Below, one piece after another: positions 1,956 to 56,976 of a stretch of 64,000 bases of DNA; the first letter of the stretch is position 1, and every line of letters begins with the position of its first letter. This DNA comes from Prevotella conceptionensis 9403948. GTDB taxonomy: Bacteria > Bacteroidota > Bacteroidia > Bacteroidales > Bacteroidaceae. A model generated the notes under the pieces. It worked only from the letters and a program-made list of their open reading frames with translations. It searched no databases and was not told where the DNA came from. The translations under genes and the position numbers were made by a program. Where the stretch lies: assembly GCF_000312305.1 (NCBI RefSeq), contig NZ_HE999447.1, positions 322,073-386,072 of the forward strand, read 5' to 3'.

Positions 1956-1970
1956 TCTTATTTTACGTAC

Positions 1971-2610
1971 AAGTTTTAACATTATGAATGCCCTTTTTAT
2001 CCACCAGCCGCCCACCTTGCCCCAAAAATTCGATTCTCGCGAAGGTTAGTTTTGGTGCAAAGAGGGTTAGTATGTTAATGCATACAAAATGAATACACCT
2101 TGCATAAAACCGCAATACGCACTAGATTTTGGGCTATTTGCAGCAAAATGCAGTGCAATATGCCGCTAAACGCAGTGCGTTTTGGTACAAAACACCTTGC
2201 GTTTTGGTACAAAATGCAGTGCGTTTTGGTGCTAAACGCAAGGCAAAATGGTGCAAAATGCAGTACAAAATGGTGCTAAATGCGGTACAGCACGCATAAA
2301 AATTCACTGCAAAGAGATGGATAAAACCTTTCTGAGCCACTAAAAACATGGCTCAAAAGGGCGAAATAGTCGTCAAAAAGTGAGATTTTAGGGTCTAAAA
2401 GTGGGTTTTGGGACTTGCAAAATTGCGAGTCGGCGACCAAACTAGAAAGGCTAAATGGTACAAAATGCAGGTTCTGCTCTCAAAAATGGACAAAACAAAA
2501 GGCGTCAAAGGCTAGAAATAGTGGCTGTTTACCTACTTTACAACCCTTTTTTTCGCTAGAACGGAGTAGAAATTAGAGCGACATTGTAAAATATAACGCA
2601 TGATTTTAAG
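1971..2610 (+). repeat. Composite brick element, copy A
   Basis: The left module begins at a TTTTAACATTATGA motif and contains TTCGATTCTCGCGAAGG. Seven tandem 22-bp bricks follow at about 2140-2293. The right module contains GGCTCAAAAGGGC and CGCTAGAACGGAGTAG and ends near TGATTTTAAG. The same order and wording recur at 25.7, 43.7 (inverted) and 55.0 kb. No protein is encoded: short frames across the bricks arise because three 22-bp units keep frame. No transposase or clear terminal inverted repeats are visible. Confidence 0.85.
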
Positions 2611-2920: not shown

Positions 2921-4837
2921 TTAATTCTTAGATGTTGTCTTTGGTTTCTTCAATTCAAGCTTAGGAATTTTTATTTTTTGTCCTTCTTTCAGTTCCTTCA
3001 CATTTCCGTTAACAGCCTCAATGTAGCACTCCATACCAGGACCTAACATGCTTTTGCTTAGCGAATAGAGCGTTTGACCTTTGGTAACCGTTACCACATG
3101 GGCAATACCCACAATCTTATAAGCACCCGTTCTCACACGGGCGTCTTTCTCGTATTGCTTGTAGTTTTGGCTTTCGTCTGTGTTGGCCTTAGCCTTCTCT
3201 TGCTTTGGTGCAGGCTTATCCGCCGTTTTTTCGGCAGGTTTCTTATTCTCGGAGGCTGTTGCAGCAGACTTCTTATTGTCTGCTTTCTCCGCCCTTTTCT
3301 CCGCATTTTGTGCTATCTTCGCCTCGCTAGCTGCCAAATCGGCTTTGGTTTGGGCATCTATTAGCCTGTTTATCGAGTCTTCGCGTGCCGAATCGGCAGG
3401 CGAAAGTGCTTGTTCGGATGCCTTTGTATCAGAAGGTTTAGAGGTATTCAGGAGCGTTTCAAGGTGCGAAATGCGGTTGTCTTTCAGCTGCATTTGGTTC
3501 AATAGGTACCAAGCCACACCGCCAACAACCACAATAATGCCAACAACACAGGCCACAATAAGCCTTCTGCGCTTTCTTCTGCGCTCCTCTTCTTCCCATT
3601 CGTCCTCTTCGTATTCACACGAGTTTTCATCTGTTTCGTCGTCTTCGTCTGAGTCCTCTTCATCAGATTGAAGTTCGGTTTCCACATCCGAGTCGTCAGC
3701 ACTGTTGCTTTCCGTATCTTCTGGTGTAAGCTCGTCTTCTGTTTCCGGGTTCTCGTCAACAAGCGTTTGGCCTTCAACAACAGGCACCGCGCAAGCCGCT
3801 TGTACAGGTTCGCACTCGTTATCAGCGTCGGTATCGGTATCTACAATGTCATTGTCGGCATCAAGCATGTCTTCTTCTTTTGCGGGTTCGCCTTCCACAT
3901 CATTATGTGTTTCTTCCACATCGCTTGCCTCTACCCCATCTACAACATCCATTTCGGTAGCATCGGGCGTTTCGTCTGCCTGCTCAGAAAGCCCTTCAAC
4001 CGATTGGGTTTGTGCTTGTGTCCCTTCCGTTTCATCATCAGAAAGGATGTCGGGCGCGCCTGTTCCTGTTTCAATGGAGGTTTCCTCCAACTCTAACTCC
4101 GCACGCTGAACAACACGCTGTTCCTGTTCGTTGTGCCTTTCGCCGCCGTTAAGCAGGCGCAACTGGTCGGCAGTGAGGGTAAGTTGGCTTATTGCATTCA
4201 CTGCATTTTCGGTCGTAGCGGTTGGCAGCTGGTCGCCATTAAGCGCCGAAAGCTGTTGCATCGTGAGAATATGACTCTTTTCGGGAGCCTTCTTAACCGG
4301 CACTTCTGTTTCGTTGGGCACTTCTACGGGTGCGCTAGCCAATGCATCGGCAGCTTGGTTCACCACGGTTTCAATCTTAGAAGGCGGCAAAGTAGAGGTA
4401 GGCGTTAACTCTGCATCGTCCGAATTATCGTTCAAGGGCGTGCGGTCTGTATCGGATGCCGTTTCCGTCCAGTCCATTCGCTCCAACTCTTTCAAGTCAA
4501 CACCATCATTGATAACAACCGTATCGAATTGGGCAAAGGGCTTGTTCACCAAATCTTTCATGGTGCTGTCGGGCGTAAAGGAAATCTTATCGCGCCCATC
4601 AATGATTATCGGCTCGCCCGTATTAACGTCAACGCTCTTGCGCGCACTAACACTCATCACCTTAAACGTACCAAGCCCTTTTAGCTTAACTTGCTTATCG
4701 TCGTTCAATCCCACATTAAGCGTATCGAACATTGTTGCCACAAAGTTCTCGGCCTCCTTCAAAGAAAGCTTGTTTTTGTTGACAAGAGCCATTGCCAACT
4801 CGCGGATACCAACTCTGTTATTCATCTTCACCTCCAT
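2921..4837 (-). CDS. Membrane-spanning HU-LysM fusion protein
   Basis: This 638-residue protein has an HU/IHF-type DNA-binding domain at about residues 5-100 (contains LKGLGTFKV). Then come about 300 residues very rich in Asp and Glu, a basic RRRKRRR cluster at about 419-425, and one hydrophobic helix at about 426-447. An Ala/Lys/Glu-rich stalk follows, then a LysM-like domain at about 577-628 (HVVTVTKGQTLYSLS). The basic cluster before the helix predicts HU in the cytoplasm and LysM in the periplasm, so the protein could link nucleoid and cell wall; that role is inference. Its start overlaps the upstream HU gene by 20 bp. MNNRVG, 4 codons inside, is an alternative start. Confidence 0.85.
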   Translation of the reverse strand: MEVKMNNRVGIRELAMALVNKNKLSLKEAENFVATMFDTLNVGLNDDKQVKLKGLGTFKVMSVSARKSVDVNTGEPIIIDGRDKISFTPDSTMKDLVNKPFAQFDTVVINDGVDLKELERMDWTETASDTDRTPLNDNSDDAELTPTSTLPPSKIETVVNQAADALASAPVEVPNETEVPVKKAPEKSHILTMQQLSALNGDQLPTATTENAVNAISQLTLTADQLRLLNGGERHNEQEQRVVQRAELELEETSIETGTGAPDILSDDETEGTQAQTQSVEGLSEQADETPDATEMDVVDGVEASDVEETHNDVEGEPAKEEDMLDADNDIVDTDTDADNECEPVQAACAVPVVEGQTLVDENPETEDELTPEDTESNSADDSDVETELQSDEEDSDEDDETDENSCEYEEDEWEEEERRRKRRRLIVACVVGIIVVVGGVAWYLLNQMQLKDNRISHLETLLNTSKPSDTKASEQALSPADSAREDSINRLIDAQTKADLAASEAKIAQNAEKRAEKADNKKSAATASENKKPAEKTADKPAPKQEKAKANTDESQNYKQYEKDARVRTGAYKIVGIAHVVTVTKGQTLYSLSKSMLGPGMECYIEAVNGNVKELKEGQKIKIPKLELKKPKTTSKN

Positions 4838-17496: not shown

Positions 17497-17618
17497 CATC
17501 AGTTTAGTAGACAAGTTGACGAGTTGACAGGTAGACGAGTTGAGAAGTTGACAGGTAGACGAGTTGAGAAGTTGACGAGTTGACGAGTTAACAACTTGAC
17601 GAGTTAGCAAGCTGATAG
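17497..17618. repeat. Octanucleotide array, AGTTGACG type
   Basis: About 15 units with strict 8-bp period (AGTTGACG, AGTTGACA, GGTAGACG, AGTTGAGA). Unlike most other octamer arrays it is not beside a brick element. Confidence 0.85.
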
Positions 17619-17628
17619 GCGCAGCCAT

Positions 17629-17806
17629 CTTTTCAACCTCTCAACCTTCCACCCTTTCACCCTTTCATCCTTTCACCTTTTCACCCTTTCACCTTTTCAC
17701 CTTTTCACCTTTTCATCTTTTCACCCTTTCACCTTTTCACCCTTTCACCTTTTCACCTTTTCACCTTTTCACCTTTTCACCTTTTCACCTTTTCACCCTT
17801 AATCGA
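17629..17806. repeat. Octanucleotide array, TTTCACCY type
   Basis: About 22 near-identical 8-bp units (TTTCACCC, TTTCACCT, with early TTTCAACC variants). Strand composition is extreme: almost no G on the plus strand for 170 bp. It lies 20 bp from the AGTTGACG array but has a different word and the same period. Confidence 0.9.
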
Positions 17807-22028: not shown

Positions 22029-22404
22029 CCGTATATAACCGACCACACTATTACATAACACTAGCCACGCCATTACATTACATAACATTAATCATGCTTT
22101 TGCGTAACATTGGCCACACTATTGCATACAAGCACTTGGCTAGCGCGCCGTGTTTCGCCTTACTAACACAGACACAGGCAAACGTTTCTTAATTATTGCT
22201 GTCCGCTAAACTTCAATTCGGCTCGGTTTCTCTATCCGCAATGCCCATCCATAGGCGTTGCAGATTCCGTTTTCGAAAAGTAAGCCCCCTTTCAGATTAT
22301 CATTCATCCCAGAAACTCTTCCATGTAAGTGCTCTTTTACTGGCACAAGGATTAAATTCAACACAGTCGCGCAATGGCACTGAATAACGGCCATAAGATT
22401 GTAA
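22029..22404. other. Gene-free stretch with short degenerate repeats
   Basis: At 22041-22130 words like CCACACTATTACATAACA and CCACGCCATTACAT recur every 21-28 bp, a short decayed tandem. The rest shows nothing I can support. Confidence 0.45.
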
Positions 22405-22835
22405 AACATTTGTACCAAAATTTAACATTATGAGTGCCCTCGCCGTAAAAATTCCAGGCATCGGTCGGATTTTCGCGCGTATTTTTAAAGTTTGTAACCA
22501 TTTGATTTATTGACGTTTACGATAAATAAGGCACAAAAACATGCCTTTTGGCATGTATTAGGGGTGCAAAACAACATGAAGTGCTGAACCAAACGCCACC
22601 AAGCAATTTTTCATTCCAAATGGTCAAAATGCCTATAAATAACGTTGAAAATGGTGCTTTTTATGGGTTTTGGCTGCATTTTGCAGCATTTTACCTTGCA
22701 TTTTGGTGCATATTGCAATGCGTTTTGGTGCATATTGCAATGCGTTTTGGTGCATATTGCAATGCGTTTTGATGCAAAATGCAATGCGTTTTGATGCATA
22801 TTGCACTGCGTTTTGATGCAAAATACGTTGCAACA
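22405..22835. repeat. Decayed brick element, copy B
   Basis: The left-module start (AAATTTAACATTATGAGTGC) is present at about 22414-22438. The rest of that module is unrecognisable. Six 22-bp bricks lie at 22688-22819 in the opposite orientation (ATATTGCAATGCGTTTTGGT type). The internal bricks are nearly identical to each other, more so than in the other copies, which suggests local amplification within a broken element. Confidence 0.65.
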
Positions 22836-23383
22836 TCTAGCGATTAGACTCCATTTTCTTGTAGTTGCGGATGCAAATTTGGGAGAATTTTTCTTCAAAG
22901 AGAAATGCAAAAGCATAGAAAATGGCCAAAAACGGAGGGGATAAGCACGCAAAAATTGCTGAAAACTCATCGTTTGGGCGCATTTTATATAACTTTTAGG
23001 AGGTATTATTTTCTAGAATGGTTCGCCCGAAAAACGTGCTTTGTAAAATATATTTATTGTTTTAACAAATCGCAAGTAGACATTTTCCGAGATAAGAACA
23101 ACATCCATGTATCTGCATGAGCGATAAGACTAAACATAATGGGCGCAATGATGCGAACAAGTTTAAGCCCTTACTGACGTAATGATATAGGGCAACGAAA
23201 CGCGTATGGCGTTCACGTTCACCCAGTTGCGCTTTTAATTCCAATCGGCTGTCCGCTATATCGCGTTTGTGAAGAACAGAAAGGGGCTTACTTTTGGTGA
23301 GAGGTGAAACTAATTTCTCTATTTGTCGGCAACCTGAACACCATATCTGCTGTTTCAAATCTTTTAGCGGACAGCAATATTTC
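22836..23383. other. Gene-free stretch downstream of the flavoenzyme gene
   Basis: About 550 bp without a recognisable gene or repeat. Short open frames on both strands show no family resemblance. Confidence 0.4.
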
Positions 23384-25577: not shown

Positions 25578-25699
25578 ATCATAATCGAAAACGATTCGTT
25601 TTAGGTACTAATTGCCTTATGGGCAAGTTCGCACATATCGAGATTGTCTTTATTTTAACACCAATCAGCACACACGGCGCAATCGCTTTTGTCTACTTT

Positions 25700-26385
25700 T
25701 CAGCAAGAATTTTAACATTCTGAGTACCCTTTCCGACAACCAACTGCCCATCTTGCCGCAAAAAATCGATTCTCGCGAAGGTTTCTTTTGATGCAAAAAG
25801 GGGTTAGCATGTGCATGCGGCAAAATGAATATTCATTCCCAAAAGCCGCCATTAGCACCCATTTTGGGGCTATTTGCTGCTAAATGCAGTGCAATATGCT
25901 GCTAAACGCAGTGCAATATGCTGCTAAACGCAGTGCGTTTTGGTGCTAAATGCAGTGCGTTTTGCCGCTAAATGCAGTGCGTTTTGGTGCTAAACGCAAG
26001 GTAAAATGCTGCTAAATGCGGTGCCGAATGCTGCTAAATGCAAGACGAAAAGCATAAATATCCGCCGAAATAGCATAAACAAAACCTTATCGAACCATGA
26101 AAAGCATGGCTCAAAGGGGCAAAATGGCCGTTAAAAAGTGGAATTTTAGGGTCTAAAAGCAGGTAATTGGAGTTGAAAAAATAAGAGTCGGCAAGCAAAC
26201 CAGAAAGGCAAAATGGTGCAAAACGCAGGTCTTCTTCTTAAAAACAGACAAGTTAGAAGACGTAGCAGGTTATAAATAGTGGATGTTTGCCAACTTTTCA
26301 ACCAAAATTTTCGCTAGAACGGAGTGGGAATTAGAGCGTTATTGTAAAATAAAATAAACGATTTTAAGTTTTGTGAGTTGATGAG
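25700..26385 (+). repeat. Composite brick element, copy C
   Basis: The left module opens with AATTTTAACATTCTGAGTAC and holds AAATCGATTCTCGCGAAGG. Eight bricks of exactly 22 bp fill 25876-26051 (for example GCTAAATGCAGTGCGTTTT). The right module has CATGGCTCAAAGGGGC and CGCTAGAACGGAGTGGG and ends at ACGATTTTAAG. It is the best-preserved copy by brick count. It lies between a terminator and the pheT promoter and disrupts neither. Confidence 0.87.
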
Positions 26386-26425
26386 TTGACAAGGGGACTT
26401 AGATGACGAGTTAACCAGTAGGCTG
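26372..26425. repeat. Short octamer tract at the right end of copy C
   Basis: GTGAGTTGATGAGTTGAC and a few decayed units follow the element end. It is much shorter than the arrays beside copies A, D and E. Confidence 0.55.
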
Positions 26426-35650: not shown

Positions 35651-35746
35651 AGCAGTACGGTTTCGCACTTTATAGGCACAAAGAATTGCCCTTGGAATGC
35701 TGGTTGTACACCGCCGTTTTGTTGGCAAAGTGTTAGTGAAAACTAT

Positions 35747-35866
35747 TTGTACTGCGGCTACAAACTATCTTGTAGTCGCACTACAAACGGCTTGTAGTGC
35801 GGGTACAAGCGTCTTGTAGTGTCAGTACAAGCACTTTGTAGTGCCAGTACAAGGGGGCTTGTACTG
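35747..35866. repeat. Tandem palindromes, 22-23-bp period
   Basis: Five 17-bp hyphenated palindromes of the form TTGTASTGNNNSTACAA start at 35747, 35770, 35792, 35814 and 35836, with a half unit at 35859. Arms are TTGTA/TACAA; in the second unit they extend to TTGTAGT/ACTACAA. The spacers are 5-6 bp and differ in sequence. There is no ORF. Confidence 0.9.
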
Positions 35867-43344: not shown

Positions 43345-43735
43345 TAACTTGCCTATTCATCAACCCACAGACTCATCAACTTACAAACTCATCAACTCAC
43401 AAACTCATCAACTCACAGGCTTATCAACTCATAAACTTATAAACTCACATACTCATCACCACTTACGAACTCATTAACCCACAAACTCATCAACTCACAT
43501 ACTCATCAACTTACGAACTCATCAACTTACGAACTCATCAACTTACGAACTCATCAACTTACAAACTCATCAACTTACAAACTCATCAACTTACAAACTC
43601 ACCAACTTACGAACTCATCAACTTACATACTCATCAACTTACATACTCATCAACTCACAAACTCATCAACTCACAGACTTATCAACCCATAAACTTATAA
43701 ACTCACAAACCCATAATCTCCTCAACTCAAAAGTT
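43345..43735. repeat. Long octanucleotide array beside copy D
   Basis: About 48 octamers, mostly alternating CATCAACT with TACAAACT, TACGAACT or CACAAACT, so a 16-bp dimer period is also visible. It is the reverse complement of the AGTTG arrays, consistent with copy D being inverted. At about 390 bp it is the longest octamer array in the window. Confidence 0.9.
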
Positions 43736-44372
43736 TAAATTCTTATTTTTTATTTTACAATACCGTTCTAAATTTCACTCCGTTCTAGCGAAAATATAGG
43801 TCAAAAAGCAGGTAAATAGCCACTATTTCTAGCCTTTCATGCCTCCTTTTATGTCCATTTTTACGAACAAAGGATGCATTTTGCACCATTTAGCCTGTCT
43901 AGTTTGGTTGCCAGCTCGTAATTTTTCAAGCCCAATTACTCGCTTTTAACCCCTAAAATCCCACTTTTTAAGGGCTGTTTTGCCCTTTTTAGCCATGTTT
44001 TTAATGGTTCGAAAGGGTTTTGTTTATACTCTTTCAGTGGATATTTATGCGCATCGCATTGCATTTAGCAGCATTTTGCACTGCATTTAGCACCATTTTA
44101 CCTTGCGTTTAGCACCAAAATGCACTGCATTTAGCACCAAAACGCAGTGCGTTTAGCGGCATATTGCACTGCGTTTAGCACCAAAACGCATTGCATTTTG
44201 CTGCAAATGGCCCCAAAACGGGTGTTGGTGGCGGTCAGTTTAAATAAAAATTCATTTTGCCTGCATGCACAACTAGCCCCTTTTGGCATCAAAACAAACC
44301 TCCGCGAGAATCTATTTTTTGCGGCAAGGTGAGCGATTGGTGGACAGAATGGCCGCTTTTTATGTTAAATTT
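43736..44372 (-). repeat. Composite brick element, copy D (inverted)
   Basis: Read on the minus strand it has the same order: left module near 44372 (AAATTTAACAT, then GATTCTCGCGGAGG), seven 22-bp bricks at 44204-44051, and the right module with AGCCATGTTTTTAATGG and CGCTAGAACGGAGTG in complement. It ends at the octamer array. The left module is more diverged than in A, C and E. Confidence 0.85.
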
Positions 44373-44380
44373 CCTACTGA

Positions 44381-44527
44381 AAACTAGACAAAAAAAACAA
44401 TAATTCCACATACACGCTCGTAGTTAACGGCACGGAAAGCACGTGCGCTTACGACCACCAGCGCGAGCGGTTGCAGGGCTTGTTGCTCACAGCCAACGAA
44501 GACGGCATCATACAAACGCAGAAGTAA
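44381..44527 (+). pseudogene. Gene remnant, C-terminal fragment
   Basis: An open frame with coding-like codons and no start codon ends in TAA. Its product includes TYTLVVNGTESTCAYDHQR and then LQGLLLTANEDG, which looks like the end of a secreted or enzymatic protein, though I do not recognise the family. It begins 8 bp after the end of brick element copy D, so the rest of the gene may have been lost when repeats rearranged here. Confidence 0.45.
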
Positions 44528-44650
44528 TCTGCCATCGACAGCCAGTTTTCAGCTTGTAAAGAATGTATTGAATGACTTCCGCCAGGCAACTTTTTGAGAC
44601 ATAACCACGTTTCGCCAAAGACAAATGGGGCAGAATTTTGGATTTTATCG

Positions 44651-44658
44651 TATCTTTG
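44651..44658 (+). promoter_or_regulatory. Orphan -7 box before the 66-bp array
   Basis: TATCTTTG followed by CC is a good -7 element facing the satellite array, about 100 bp upstream of it. There is no matching -33 at the correct distance (TTTG is only 10 bp upstream). Transcription into the array is possible but unproven. Confidence 0.3.
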
Positions 44659-44759
44659 CCCAGTACTTCATACATGAAGAGAAGTGTTATTATCTTGGTT
44701 TTTCACCAGAAAGACGATAAACTCCCTCTCAAATTATAGAAACATTAAAAATCAAGACG

Positions 44760-46165
44760 ACCTCGGATAATTAAGGCTAAACATGCCTTATTATCGCCAC
44801 TTTTCACCAAATATAACCGATGTATAGGGCGCATCCTAGTGGGTACAGGCCAATACGCTCTCTGTTTGTCACTAGATAATGTCCTTATTTCGAGAATATT
44901 TTAGGGCATAACATCCCATATACTCACCGCCTTTCACGAGAAAAGTCGGCGATTATGGGTTATTTTTAGGGAGTAACACCATTCGCACTACTTTTTTTGT
45001 ATGGCCTTAGGTCGGTGATAATGGGTTGTTTTTAGGGAGCAACACCATTCGCACTACGTGTTTTGCGTGGCCTTAGGTCAGCGATTATAGGCTGTTTTTA
45101 GGGAGTAACACCATTCGCACTACTTGTTTTGTGTGGGCCTAGGTCGGCGATAACAAGTTACTTTTAGGGAGTAACACCATTCGCGCGACTTGTTTAGTGC
45201 GGGCTTAGGTCGGCGATTATAGGTTATTTTTAAGGAGCGACACCATTCGCACTACTTGTTTTGCGTGGCCTTAGGTCGGCGATTATGGGTTATTTTTAGG
45301 GAGCAACACCATTCGCACTACTTGTTTTGCGTGGCCTTAGGTCGGCGATTATAGGCTGTTTTTAGGGAGCAACACCATTCGCACTACTTGTTTCATGTGG
45401 GCTTAGGTCGGCGATAATGGGTTGTTTTTAGGGAGTAACACCATTCGCGCTACTTGTTTTGTGTGGCCTTAGGTCGGCGATTATGGGTCGTTTTTAGGGA
45501 GTAACATCATTCGCACTACTTGTTTTGTGTGGTCTTAGGTCGGCGATTATGGGTCGTTTTTAGGGAGTAACATCATTCGCACTACTTGTTTTGTGTGGTC
45601 TTAGGGGGGCGATTATGGGTTGTTTTAGGGAAGTAACACCTCATACACTTGCTGTTTTTTACGAATCACAGTGGCTGTTTAGGGTGTATTCTAAGGTTTC
45701 AAACAGACTATTAGTTGCCGTTTGTCCACGAGATAAAATCGGCATTAGAGGGTGGTTTAGGGCTTATTATTGGAAGTATCAACCTATAAATTCCCACTTT
45801 TCACTAGCCCCTAATTGGCGTTAGCATGTGGCTTTAAGGCATAACAACCTTTATTTCCACCGCGTTTCACAAGATATGAGCAGTACTTAGGGCCTACAAT
45901 GGGGGGCATCAACCCATTAATCTCCGTTTGTCAATAGAATAAACAGCGTTCGCGAATGTTTTAGGCATAACACAGCACACACTCGCTGCTTTTCACGAGA
46001 TATAGTCAATGGTTAGGACCATCATTGGAGTAATCAAGCCTATCATTCTCCACCTATCACTAGAAAAGTTGGCATTAGAGGGGCGTTTTAGAGCATAACG
46101 TCCCACATATCCGCCACTTTACATGAGAAAAGGCAGGTATTTAGGAGTTTTTTAGGTTGGTTTCT
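44760..46165. repeat. 66-bp satellite array
   Basis: About 21 tandem 66-bp units. The core of eleven units has the marker GTCGGCGATTATGGG (or a variant) at 44945, 45011, 45077, 45143, 45209, 45275, 45341, 45407, 45473, 45539 and 45605: exactly 66 bp each time with no indel. Outside the core, units are much diverged but keep features such as GCATAACATCCCA and TTTCACGAGA. All frames are interrupted by stops in several units, so this is not a coding repeat. Confidence 0.92.
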
Positions 46166-53863: not shown

Positions 53864-54754
53864 TTACCAATCGTCCAGGCAACTCGTTGCCTCCACTTCG
53901 TCCTCCACCTTATTGGGCAAAGTGGGGAAAAAGTCGATGCCCGTGATGCGTTCCACCTCGTCGATGGTATTCACGTAATAGCTTTTAGGGCGGTCGTCCC
54001 CTTCGTTGCGATAAATAAAACCAATAGCTTTTGGTTGTCCTTCCATACACAGCACCACCTTAAAGAAAGCCTCTGGCACCGTTACCTTGTTTTTTCCGAT
54101 GGTTTTATGTTCGCCTTTCATCAGTATAGGCCCCGCAACGATGTAGATACAACCATACTTTTTAGCCCATTTCCTGCACTGGCTTTCCAACTCTTTCCAA
54201 TCACCAACGTTCAGCTTATGGTCTTGGGGACATATATTAGTGAGCAGAAACGATTGCTTTTGCGCAGTAGCATCCCAACAATTGTCTGCCGAGGGGCAAA
54301 GGCGTCCGCGGTCGTAGCCGTTTCTCACGTAGTCAGCATCAACGGCTCTTGGCTTTGGCACCTCCTTGTCCTCTTGAAACCTCATTCCCTTACGTTCGTT
54401 GGCACCTTCTGTATGTTCGGCCGTTAGTTTCCATGCCACCCAGTTGGGTATCCTCAAATCGCTGTTATACGATGCCATGTAAGCCACGCGCTTCAACAGT
54501 TGTTCGGGCCTATCAGTTAGTTTTCCAGGAACTTCAAGTGGCCCCAAACCTTTCCTCTGCACCCAAGTACACTTGTGCACAACCGTATCTCGAACACTGT
54601 CTTCCCCTTCATACAGCCGCTGTTTAGCTACCTGCTGTCCTTGAAGAGGTTGCACACCCACTATCGACTTGCCGCTTTTTACGGGTTGCAAGCCAAAGGC
54701 CGACAAATAAGTAAAGGCAAATAACGCCAGATAAAATACTTTTCTCGTTTTCAT
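53864..54754 (-). CDS. NUC-type nuclease paralog with altered catalytic His and lipobox
   Basis: This 296-residue protein of the DNA/RNA non-specific endonuclease family has SADN, LTNICPQDHKLNVGDWKELE and the rest of the fold. The catalytic DRGH motif reads DRGR (codon CGC; CAC in the paralog at 56098). The signal sequence ends LSAFGLQ, where the paralog has LSACGLQ with a lipobox Cys. Both changes are single-base differences. The reading frame is fully intact, so this is not a frameshifted pseudogene. It may be an inactive or repurposed copy. A -7 box (TAAATTTG, minus strand 54788-54781) lies upstream. Confidence 0.88.
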   Translation of the reverse strand: MKTRKVFYLALFAFTYLSAFGLQPVKSGKSIVGVQPLQGQQVAKQRLYEGEDSVRDTVVHKCTWVQRKGLGPLEVPGKLTDRPEQLLKRVAYMASYNSDLRIPNWVAWKLTAEHTEGANERKGMRFQEDKEVPKPRAVDADYVRNGYDRGRLCPSADNCWDATAQKQSFLLTNICPQDHKLNVGDWKELESQCRKWAKKYGCIYIVAGPILMKGEHKTIGKNKVTVPEAFFKVVLCMEGQPKAIGFIYRNEGDDRPKSYYVNTIDEVERITGIDFFPTLPNKVEDEVEATSCLDDW

Positions 54755-54998: not shown

Positions 54999-55640
54999 GC
55001 AAATTTTAACATTATGAGTGCCCTTTTCGGCTACCAATTGCCTGCCTTGCCGCAAAAAATCGATTCTCGCGAAGGTTTGCTTTGATGCCAAAAGGGGTTA
55101 GTTATATATGCAGGCAAACTGAATATTCATTCTATAAAATCGCCTTCCGTACCAGTTTTTGGACTATTTGCGGCAACATGTACTGCAATTTGCTGCAAAA
55201 CGCAGTGCAATATGCCGCTAAATGCAGTGCGTTTTGATGCTAAACGCAGTGCGTTTTGATGCTAAATGCAAGGTAAAATGGTGCTAAATGCAGTGCAAAA
55301 TGCAGCTAAACGTAAGACGAAAAGAATAAATATGCACTGCAATGGCATAAACAAAACCCTTTCGAGCCATTAAAAACATGGCTCAAAAGGGCAAAATAGG
55401 CCTTAAAAAGTAGCATTTTAGGGGCTAAAAGCGAGTAATTGGGAGTTAAAAAATATGGGGTGGCAACCAAAATAGAAAGATTAAATGGTGCAAAATGCAG
55501 GTTGTTTTCTTAAAAACAGACAGAACAAAAGACAGGAAAGACTAAAAACAGTAGATATTTACCTACTTTTTAGCCTGTATTTTCGCTAAAACGGAGTGAG
55601 AATTAGAGCGATATTGTAAAATAAAATATAATAATTTAAG
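54999..55640 (+). repeat. Composite brick element, copy E
   Basis: The left module starts AAATTTTAACATTATGAGTG and has AAATCGATTCTCGCGAAGG. Seven 22-bp bricks lie at 55170-55323. The right module has ACATGGCTCAAAAGGGC and CGCTAAAACGGAGTGAG and ends at ATAATTTAAGC. It sits between the two nuclease paralogs, so it may have taken part in their duplication or simply landed between them. Confidence 0.87.
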
Positions 55641-55735
55641 CTTTTGAGTTGGTAAGTTTGTGAGCTGATGATTTGGTGAGTTGATAAGATTGTGAGATTG
55701 TGAGTTGATGTATTCGGGAGTAGCTGGGTTTCGTG
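55641..55735. repeat. Octamer array at the right end of copy E
   Basis: About 11 decayed AGTTGGTA, AGTTTGTG and AGTTGATA type units directly after the element. Confidence 0.7.
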
Positions 55736-55818
55736 TCTTTATAAGCCAGCGAGTTGATTTGTCCTGCACTCCGTATATGAGAGGAATGCTTGCCTTGTTG
55801 TTGGCATCACAAAGATAA

Positions 55819-55866
55819 CAAACCCCGCTCAATTTATAGAAAGATTAAAAGTCAAGACGACTTCTA
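55819..55866. repeat. 48-bp segment shared with 44729-44766
   Basis: AAACCCCGCTCAATTTATAG, then ATTAAAAGTCAAGACGAC, closely matches a segment just before the 66-bp satellite. It marks a second dispersed sequence near brick elements D and E. Confidence 0.6.
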
Positions 55867-56097: not shown

Positions 56098-56976
56098 TTA
56101 CCAATCGTCCAAGCTACTCGTTGCCTCCACTTCGTTCTCCACTTTGTCGGGCAAAGCAGGGAAAAAGTCGATACCTGTGATACGTTCCACGTCGTCGATG
56201 GTATTCACGTAATAGCTTTTAGGCCTATTTCCCGACTCGTTACGATAAATAAAGCCAATGGCCTTGGGCTTTTTCTCCATGCACAACACCACCTTAAAGA
56301 AAGCCTCTGGCACCGTTACCTTGTTTTTTCCGATGGTCTTATGTTTCCCCTTAAACAGCACAGGACCCGCCACTATATAAATGCTGCCATACGTTTTAGC
56401 CCACTTCCTACAGAGGATTTCCAGTTCGTGCCAGTCGCCAACGTTCAGGTTATGGTCTTGCGGACACACATTCGTAAGCAAAAACGATTGCTCTTGTGCA
56501 GTAGCATCCCAGCGATTATCGGCCGATGGGCAAAGGTGTCCACGGTCATAACCACTCCTTACGTAGTCAAAGTCCACCGCCCTAGGCATTGGCACATCGG
56601 TATCTTCATGAAACTTAACGCCCGCCCGCTTGTTCTTTCCCTCGGTATGCGCCCCTGTAAGCCTCCACGCCACCCAATTAGGTATGTGTAAGTCGCTGTT
56701 ATACGATGCCGTGTAAGCCACTCGTTTCAATATCTGTTCAGGTCTGTCGGTCAGTTTCTTAGGCACTTCAAGTCCATCAGCAACCTTATATGCTGCTTTC
56801 CCTTGCTTATCGGTGCCATATCCGTTCTTGCCTTCCGAATTAATCTGCCCGTCTTTCTGTTCTTGATAGGCATACTTTCCACCCAACTGCCGGCCAAGCT
56901 TAGACGGTTGCAGGCCACAAGCAGACAAGCAGAGGCCCGCCAATAACGCCAAACTATATACTTTCCGTGATTTCAT
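56098..56976 (-). CDS. NUC-type DNA/RNA non-specific endonuclease, lipoprotein
   Basis: This 292-residue protein has a signal with lipobox LSAC (Cys19), so it is probably a membrane-anchored lipoprotein. The nuclease domain has the intact DRGH motif in YDRGHLCPSADN and the Mg-binding Asn in LTNVCPQDHNLN. It should degrade DNA and RNA outside the inner membrane, for nutrient scavenging or defence against extracellular DNA. It is paralogous to the gene at 53864, very similar from about residue 75 to the end. Confidence 0.92.
   Translation of the reverse strand: MKSRKVYSLALLAGLCLSACGLQPSKLGRQLGGKYAYQEQKDGQINSEGKNGYGTDKQGKAAYKVADGLEVPKKLTDRPEQILKRVAYTASYNSDLHIPNWVAWRLTGAHTEGKNKRAGVKFHEDTDVPMPRAVDFDYVRSGYDRGHLCPSADNRWDATAQEQSFLLTNVCPQDHNLNVGDWHELEILCRKWAKTYGSIYIVAGPVLFKGKHKTIGKNKVTVPEAFFKVVLCMEKKPKAIGFIYRNESGNRPKSYYVNTIDDVERITGIDFFPALPDKVENEVEATSSLDDW

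Follow-up and report, generated by a model that had tools for sequence, protein, structure and literature searches.

The 22-bp tandem repeats ("bricks") found in the window, by which we mean the whole 64,000-bp stretch of DNA that was analysed (G000:C5:322073-386072), belong to a dispersed family that we interpret, with a probability of roughly 0.65, as IS5-type mobile elements that are non-autonomous and carry a conserved cargo, the core. This interpretation follows from shared IS ends, 3-bp duplications and empty sites in related genomes. In an element, IS ends enclose a core of 648 bp that contains about seven bricks, often preceded by a piece of an rhs gene in antisense and followed by octamer repeats. 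Its second end is an inverted copy of the IS left end. Such elements have inserted at new sites with a 3-bp duplication, and the transposase of a resident IS probably moves them in trans.

The source genome comprises 4.08 Mb in 102 contigs. A locus of Hoylesella shahii DSM 15611 (L081) matches the source locus L040 at 93% identity over 1,759 bp, element and flank included; hence, the source organism is a near relative of H. shahii. Two entries of our genome collection, G174 from the genus sample and G398 retrieved via L081, are evidently one H. shahii genome, as two core copies are identically placed in both.

Copies in the window and unity of the core

Four copies, A, C, D and E, had been proposed in the window, and all four lie at about the positions claimed, with D inverted as described. 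In copy C (core 25694-26354, plus strand), the left module (coreL, 25694-25885) contains the conserved block AATCGATTCTCG and the sequence TTTTAACATT, which starts at 25710 and not at 25700, where the copy had been taken to begin. The brick array (25875-26042, plus strand) carries the directional motif TGNNGCNAAA, and the tandem arrangement was recovered by TRF with period 22 and 7.6 copies. The right module (coreR, 26044-26354, plus strand) includes TTTTCGCTAGAACGGAGTG at 26308-26326 and TTGTAAAATA at 26342-26351 and is followed by a short octamer tail of the AGTTGATG type, delimited by eye (26367-26391, plus strand). The core of copy A (1961-2596, plus strand) lies between two octamer arrays, at 1846-1940 and at 2609-2752. 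IS ends were not recognised at copies A and C of the window. Copy D (core 43739-44386, minus strand) has a long octamer array on the right side of the element (43357-43729, minus strand). Copy E has its core at 55001-55635 (plus strand). A fifth array at about 22394-23080 (plus strand) resembles the core in its left end, in its bricks and in some of its right end, but not in the interior, and is treated below as family B.

Genome-wide, the right module TTTTCGCTAGAACGGAGTG occurs at 182 sites with up to three mismatches, as compared with one site for the reversed pattern. A search with the core against its own genome gave at least 40 long matches including itself, the others with 75-82% identity; this is a lower bound, as 40 of 285 candidates were scored. 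We examined 113 distinct sites, namely 96 of the 100 best right-module matches and others in the same stretches, which form a non-random part of the 182 and favour intact copies. CoreL, bricks and coreR occur together at 108 of the 113 sites. The modules are therefore one unit, the core, and do not occur separately; the order of left module, bricks and right module given in the initial annotation thus proved correct.

Core length was measured in 107 of the 108 cores, the remaining one being cut. All 107 have 648 bp plus or minus whole multiples of 22 bp, within 3 bp: 88 are 648 bp long, 11 are one brick and 1 is two bricks shorter, and 7, including copy C, are one brick longer. The core ends were extrapolated from BLAST segments in this measurement, which may therefore overlook indels at the very tips of the core, and several other counts are likewise based on segments defined by BLAST. 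A tree of the cores is star-like (terminal branches sum to 14.2, internal branches to 2.2), with some young subfamilies whose terminal branches measure 0.03-0.06. Octamer repeats of the AGTTGATG type adjoin the core, with at least five in register on the right side in 41 of 109 cases and on the left side in 14 of 109; long octamer arrays beside the core are thus not universal. Regarding coding capacity, no ORF of at least 150 codons runs through the bricks into coreR at any of the 113 sites, and the core gave no clear three-base periodicity.

IS ends, partner IS and movement

Beyond the core, many copies extend to a terminal repeat, GAAGTCGTCTTGACTTTTAATATTTC, which recurs in inverted form at the opposite end, giving inverted repeats of 26 bp. 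The 18-bp end of this repeat occurs at 178 sites genome-wide, as compared with 3 for the control. Among the 113 sites, a left IS end was found at 48, a right one at 65 and both at 33. Within the window, copy D keeps the left end (to 44764) and copy E the right end, an inverted copy of the IS left end (55709-55864, plus strand) whose last 18 bp are identical to the terminal repeat. The element bounds proposed at first cover the cargo but not the mobile unit; the actual limits of many copies lie further out, at the IS ends.

The left-side piece of the elements translates as the N-terminus of a transposase and has 69 matches in its own genome, including two open reading frames that are 310 and 304 codons long. 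In its complete form, the IS measures 920 bp, shares the ends GAAGTC..GACTTTT with the elements and is resident in three copies (DNA identity 100, 97.9 and 97.2%; protein identity 100, 98 and 92%, the third with a stop). Its transposase scores 113.2 bits with NF033580, the NCBIfam IS5-family equivalog (cut-off 110), and contains the domains PF13340 and PF01609; from these sequence matches, we class the predicted product as an IS5-type DDE transposase. A solved structure was not found for it at E 0.01. At E 1e-60, the transposase is present in 4 of 299 genus genomes, namely the source, H. shahii and two others (61-66% identity). Genome G289, though holding a few cores, is not among them.

The brick elements have no complete transposase gene, and the N-terminal piece alone was found in them. 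The earlier statement that no transposase is visible thus needs amending for copy D, which has the first 234 bp of the IS5-family IS, comprising the left end and the N-terminal part of the transposase (44527-44764, minus strand); it is right in that the complete IS lies elsewhere in the genome. Next to this piece, copy D contains a fragment captured from an rhs-type gene, which runs antisense to the element (44410-44524, minus strand). The consensus of the full element is 1,228 bp long (21 aligned rows, one site twice; some of the underlying pairings, e.g., L039, took the wrong terminal repeat) and has the order IS bases 1 to about 234, rhs fragment where present, coreL, bricks, coreR, octamers in varying number, and inverted IS left end. 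The brick elements measure about 0.9-1.9 kb, with most of the transposase gene replaced. Over all 113 sites, a transposase fragment is present at 50 and the antisense rhs fragment, of about 110 bp, at 48. The latter was identified by its translation, which matches rhs open frames elsewhere in the genome with 65% identity over 34 residues; the short captured fragments gave no Pfam or NCBIfam hit. In two loci (L108, 2509-3252; L117, 1165-1410), 245-740 bp without a match to rhs lie between the IS piece and the core. The source genome also contains short pairs of the same ends, 260-460 bp in size; IS bases 1-297 and 842-920 could be identified in one such pair, L110.

Evidence of movement comes from the flanks. 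Identical 3-bp flanks were found in 15 of 37 non-overlapping pairs of IS ends, with 2.1 expected from shuffled pairings; at other lengths, none of the 37 pairs is identical at 4 or 5 bp and one is at 6 bp. Counted among the 37 are short MITE-like pairs and all three copies of the IS; of the latter, one has a 3-bp duplication (TTT) and two have none. In addition, ten constructs of joined flanks were searched against H. shahii and G289, with a match through the join taken as an empty site. Empty sites were obtained for L111, L041 and L037 in both H. shahii and G289 (73-94% identity) and for L010 in H. shahii only (74% identity); at some joins, the relatives differ from the source genome by a few bases. 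The other six constructs gave one-sided, repeat-only or no matches in the two genomes. On these grounds, the description as a dispersed, MITE-like composite element is borne out, with IS-type inverted repeats, 3-bp duplications in 15 of 37 pairs and four empty sites.

The same data speak against the notion that the copies belong to larger, gene-containing duplications, an outcome that the initial annotation had named as one that would refute it. Target duplications accompany the paired IS ends, relatives have four of the sites in empty form, and the flanks differ between the copies compared. Nothing was found in favour of such duplications, and we consider them extremely improbable.

Constraint among copies and between species

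The captured gene pieces in the elements provide an internal reference for the evolution of the core. In 20 complete elements, the core has 20 indels per 1,805 substitutions, as opposed to 37 per 898 in the transposase and rhs pieces (Fisher 1.5e-6); by segment, the ratio is 0.006-0.020 in the core and 0.036-0.048 in the pieces. Columns with at most one change among 31 elements make up 40-44% of the core and 6-18% of the dead segments, a contrast that is strong for A, C and G and weak for T (0.34 vs 0.27). The average change from the core consensus is 14-17% by segment, and individual 12-mers, AATCGATTCTCG and TTTTCGCTAGAA among them, change by 1-2%, the value of the latter being biased, as TTTTCGCTAGAA served as search hook. 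The column variance exceeds the binomial one 3.4-3.8 times in the dead segments and 5.6-6.2 times in the core; the copies are not independent of one another.

Copies without IS ends behave similarly. When slow and fast columns were defined on the 33 both-ended copies and applied to 20 end-less ones, the slow columns differed by 2.9% and the fast ones by 32.6%; per copy and with the search hook left out, the values are 0.6-7.1% and 26-41%. With columns defined on half of the both-ended copies, the slow/fast ratio is 0.07 in the other half and 0.15 in the end-less copies, so that the constraint in the latter may be weaker.

Between species, we compared four orthologous pairs, whose members occupy one and the same place in the two genomes, as judged by a match that extends over 650 bp or more of one flank. 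Pooled, the slow columns have 14 changes in 697, the fast columns 87 in 967 and the upstream transposase and rhs pieces 82 in 1038; the slow columns were defined on source-genome copies, three of which are partners in the pairs. One pair (L185/L064) has no contrast (4/165 slow, 7/232 fast), and the other three show it. The difference between slow and fast columns at orthologous sites argues for selection in place, and the indels add nothing to this argument: the four pairs have 7 core indels per 138 substitutions and 3 upstream per 82. Of the seven core indels, three are whole-brick changes (22 or 44 bp) and four are of 1-2 bp. The core is thus not short of indels between species, and this count does not support the result among copies.

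A different explanation would be an inert minisatellite MITE similar to BrickBuilt (see below), with an array made by slippage and a conservation that reflects recent spread, gene conversion or mutation bias. The overall plan is that of BrickBuilt, and the young subfamilies with terminal branches of 0.03-0.06 would agree with recent spread. Slippage is expected to add and remove whole units, and H. shahii and the source genome differ by one brick at the same site. The nearly equal number of small indels per substitution in core and upstream pieces between species also fits. Against this, indels per substitution among copies are almost four times more frequent in the dead segments, the conservation is column-specific and not uniform, the slow columns remain slow at orthologous sites when pooled, and in 107 cores no length departs by more than 3 bp other than by whole bricks. 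We therefore regard an inert element as distinctly unlikely. The retention of the key letters of the 22-bp repeats suggests that these are of use to the cell.

Brick motif, palindrome and structure

Within the brick array, the TG, GC and AAA columns of TGNNGCNAAA change by 1.8%, as compared with 21% for the other brick columns. Each copy has on average 8.6 motifs on the plus strand of the element and 0.1 on the other strand; in the dinucleotide-shuffled consensus, the values are 0.42 and 0.13, respectively. Four further motifs lie outside the array in the consensus (0.19 expected), out of the 22-bp register. The motif is absent from the IS itself.

Each array had been described as a row of sites capable of forming cruciforms or hairpins. 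The near-palindrome behind this idea, AAACGCAGTGCGTTT, is present (e.g., 25926-25940), but the palindrome itself is not what is conserved: its right arm is variable. The 7-bp arms do pair in many bricks. In 581 motif-bearing bricks, the four pairs that vary on both sides are paired at frequencies of 0.368, 0.675, 0.806 and 0.676, where independence predicts 0.466, 0.707, 0.787 and 0.687. Three of the four informative pairs thus lie below the prediction and one (0.806 vs 0.787) slightly above it, i.e., the arms do not covary. At the RNA level, some consensus windows, mostly over the bricks, fold below column-shuffled controls (z to -11.6), yet the RNAalifold consensus, computed for both strands from 30 of the 107 copies, is very weak, with energies between 0 and -5.4 kcal/mol per 120 columns. 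As the conserved motif is, moreover, directional, a row of cruciform or hairpin sites is very improbable, and this part of the initial annotation was not upheld. A structured non-coding RNA was also considered and rejected, given these weak folds and the lack of any Rfam hit in five sources (the window, L032, L040, L104 and L108).

The motif on one strand, the 22-bp spacing and the absence of arm covariation indicate directional sites that are spaced by two helical turns. Our best guess from these sequence features is that the bricks are a phased protein-binding array. In such an arrangement, the core might serve as a platform for a host DNA-binding protein, which would occupy one TGNNGCNAAA site after another, 22 bp apart and all facing the same side of the helix; we rate this tentatively, at somewhat less than an even chance. 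Candidate roles of an array bound in this way would be local regulation, silencing or folding of the chromosome. Mobility would then spread the putative platforms between genes, and selection would keep them there. A more far-reaching version, in which the core has been domesticated as a chromosomal binding platform and is maintained by selection, with more than 100 sites on an IS5-type chassis, lineage-specific and with a nucleoid-organising or centromere-like role, is rather doubtful.

Gene context

To assign gene orientation, octamer arrays that read as long ORFs were removed, after which 94 of the 113 sites could be classified and 19 could not. Of the 94 copies, 35 and 21 lie between tandem genes in the two directions (p 0.08), 22 between convergent and 16 between divergent ones. 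The right gene faces the element in 57 of 94 cases (p 0.049, uncorrected), which we do not count as a bias. The claim that no copy breaks a promoter found no support as a general rule, as 16 of 94 copies lie between divergent ORFs, judged by ORF orientation. The lack of a clear orientation to neighbouring genes argues against a simple role as promoter or terminator.

Beside copy A, the ORF at 2924-4837 encodes 638 amino acids with an N-terminal bacterial DNA-binding domain (PF00216); HU is far shorter than 638 amino acids. Copy E sits between two ORFs on the minus strand (53867-54754 and 56101-56976) that encode DNA/RNA non-specific endonucleases (PF01223).

Family B and other genomes

The array at about 22394-23080 begins with TTTAACATTATGAGTGCCC, has bricks at 22697-22820 and ends with CTAGAATGG and TTTGTAAAATAT. 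It represents a related family, B, with at least nine full-length matches in its own genome, itself included, at 73% identity or more (40 of 262 candidates scored). Family B shares with the core the TTTAACATTATGAGTGCCC start, the 22-bp bricks, CTAGAA.GG and the TTTGTAAAAT end, but differs in the interior. It has no IS ends of its own; those in L256 belong to a neighbouring IS. By eye, family B and the core are each bounded on either side by imperfect direct repeats, TTGTAAA..TTTTAACA.

Long matches to the core were found in 3 of 398 genus genomes, namely the source, H. shahii and G289, with two candidates scored per genome. At a threshold of 0.001, 14 of the 398 have any match, mostly a short one to the bricks. 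The right half of the core with an IS end also occurs in Alloprevotella sp. Lung230 (L080). Both flanks of copy C were found in G289, 633 bp apart and without the core, and the right flank is present without the core in H. shahii. The right flank of copy A lacks the core in both H. shahii and G289. For copies A and C, either the IS ends have decayed, or the core moves otherwise, or the relatives have lost the core.

These observations bear on a further alternative: the core could be a mobile element of greater age that has its own ends (TTGTAAA..TTTTAACA), to which the IS ends were added later as a chassis, and its constraint would serve its own movement. In support, 21 of 109 classified cores have neither an IS end nor an rhs or transposase piece, these end motifs and the bricks recur in family B in the absence of IS ends, and the flanks of copy C lie 633 bp apart in G289 without the core. 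However, inspection of the flanks revealed no enzyme, target preference or duplication for the core alone, the slow columns persist at fixed orthologous sites, and beside copy C there are, by eye, apparent remnants of the left spacer of the IS type. We consider this alternative unlikely, although less so than an inert MITE; it is compatible with the IS5-type element with cargo that we prefer, and the two are not exclusive.

Paired GCTAAAYGC sites number 408 in the source, 103 in H. shahii, 12 in G173 (control 5) and 5 in G289 (control 0). They occur in 12 of 299 genomes, in several at spacings other than 22. A genus-wide system of brick arrays is not claimed because of these other spacings and because the reversed control hits many genomes. 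Period-22 arrays are present in four of seven short-match loci from other genomes, which had been picked for brick likeness.

The core has no match in annotated plasmid or phage collections, and two exact patterns have none in viral contigs. A phage or plasmid origin was therefore rejected. A likeness of the element ends to Xer/dif half-sites was also weighed and set aside.

Comparison with known systems and significance

Bacterial MITEs are mostly regarded as inert or as stray promoters. Classical IS-derived MITEs are internal-deletion derivatives, and the short pairs of 260-460 bp in the source genome are comparable to them; unlike such MITEs, the brick elements have foreign cargo and two IS left ends in place of a left and a right one. 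Pack-type elements of eukaryotes carry gene fragments. The present elements resemble them in being non-autonomous with a captured host gene fragment (rhs) and differ in being bacterial and of IS5 type, with a fragment that is antisense and decayed. Iteron or centromere-like arrays of plasmids consist of directly repeated, directional sites of about 22 bp; unlike these, the bricks are present in more than 100 chromosomal copies, and the core has no counterpart in the plasmid and phage collections. Among the open-access papers searched, judged by title or the opening of the abstract, we found no description of such elements or of intergenic 22-bp tandem repeats in Prevotella or Prevotella shahii.

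The closest relative in plan is the BrickBuilt MITE of Porphyromonas gingivalis, with which the elements had been compared at first sight as similar in layout and distinct in sequence; this comparison is apt (PMC4596501). The BrickBuilt paper describes a leader, spacerless tandem bricks of fixed size and a tail, intergenic locations, IS5-family-like ends and a strain-variable number of bricks (PMC4596501). The fixed order of leader, tandem bricks and tail is common to both families and is found here at 108 of 113 sites. By eye, the bricks are unrelated, with 22 bp here and 23 bp (AGAYCATARTATCCTCTCRTRTG) in BrickBuilt, and so are the terminal repeats, GAGACCTTTGCA in BrickBuilt (PMC4596501). 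According to the same paper, BrickBuilt has 19 copies in strain ATCC 33277, as compared with 182 right-module sites here, and target duplications of differing lengths, as compared with 3 bp here; its copies are reported to be without transposase remnant, whereas transposase and rhs pieces are present in our family (PMC4596501). Set against that account, a constrained directional motif is a further feature of the present family.

The same elements permit a comparison of dead captured gene pieces with a slower-evolving cargo, with and without transposon ends and across species, which makes a possible recruitment of a bacterial repeat family by its host directly testable. The motif TGNNGCNAAA every 22 bp also offers a precise bait for a candidate binding protein.

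Other repeats near the elements

Several other repeats were noticed in the window and at other loci. Another tandem array of period 22, with the motif TTGTAGTGC..GTACAAG, lies at 35740-35853; one like it adjoins element L038, and H. shahii and G289 have short matches to it at scattered places. Immediately beyond the IS end of copy D, at 44945-45640, a unit of 66 bp (3 x 22) is repeated 10.5 times in tandem. Arrays with periods of 8, 16 or 24 bp, of the AGTTGATG type and of CACCTTTT, were found at 17506-17605, 17650-17797 and 43357-43714. Some arrays of this kind adjoin cores and some stand alone, and those that flank the core of copy A have opposite orientations. A dispersed repeat, AACAATGTCGAGCTTGCTC...CATTGTCATG..., adjoins several elements (flanks of L006, L012, L014 and L022), and repeats of the CACTCCCCTCTCCCCTTGGAGAGGGG..GGGGGTGAGGCC type lie near cores in the flanks of L015, L021 and C9:99671. 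Finally, the stretch CAAACAGAATTGC.TTTGGAAAATTGTTGTT, found at 1447-1617 and in the left flank of the core at C2:225935, recurs near cores and in H. shahii (L283) and is perhaps one more dispersed repeat.
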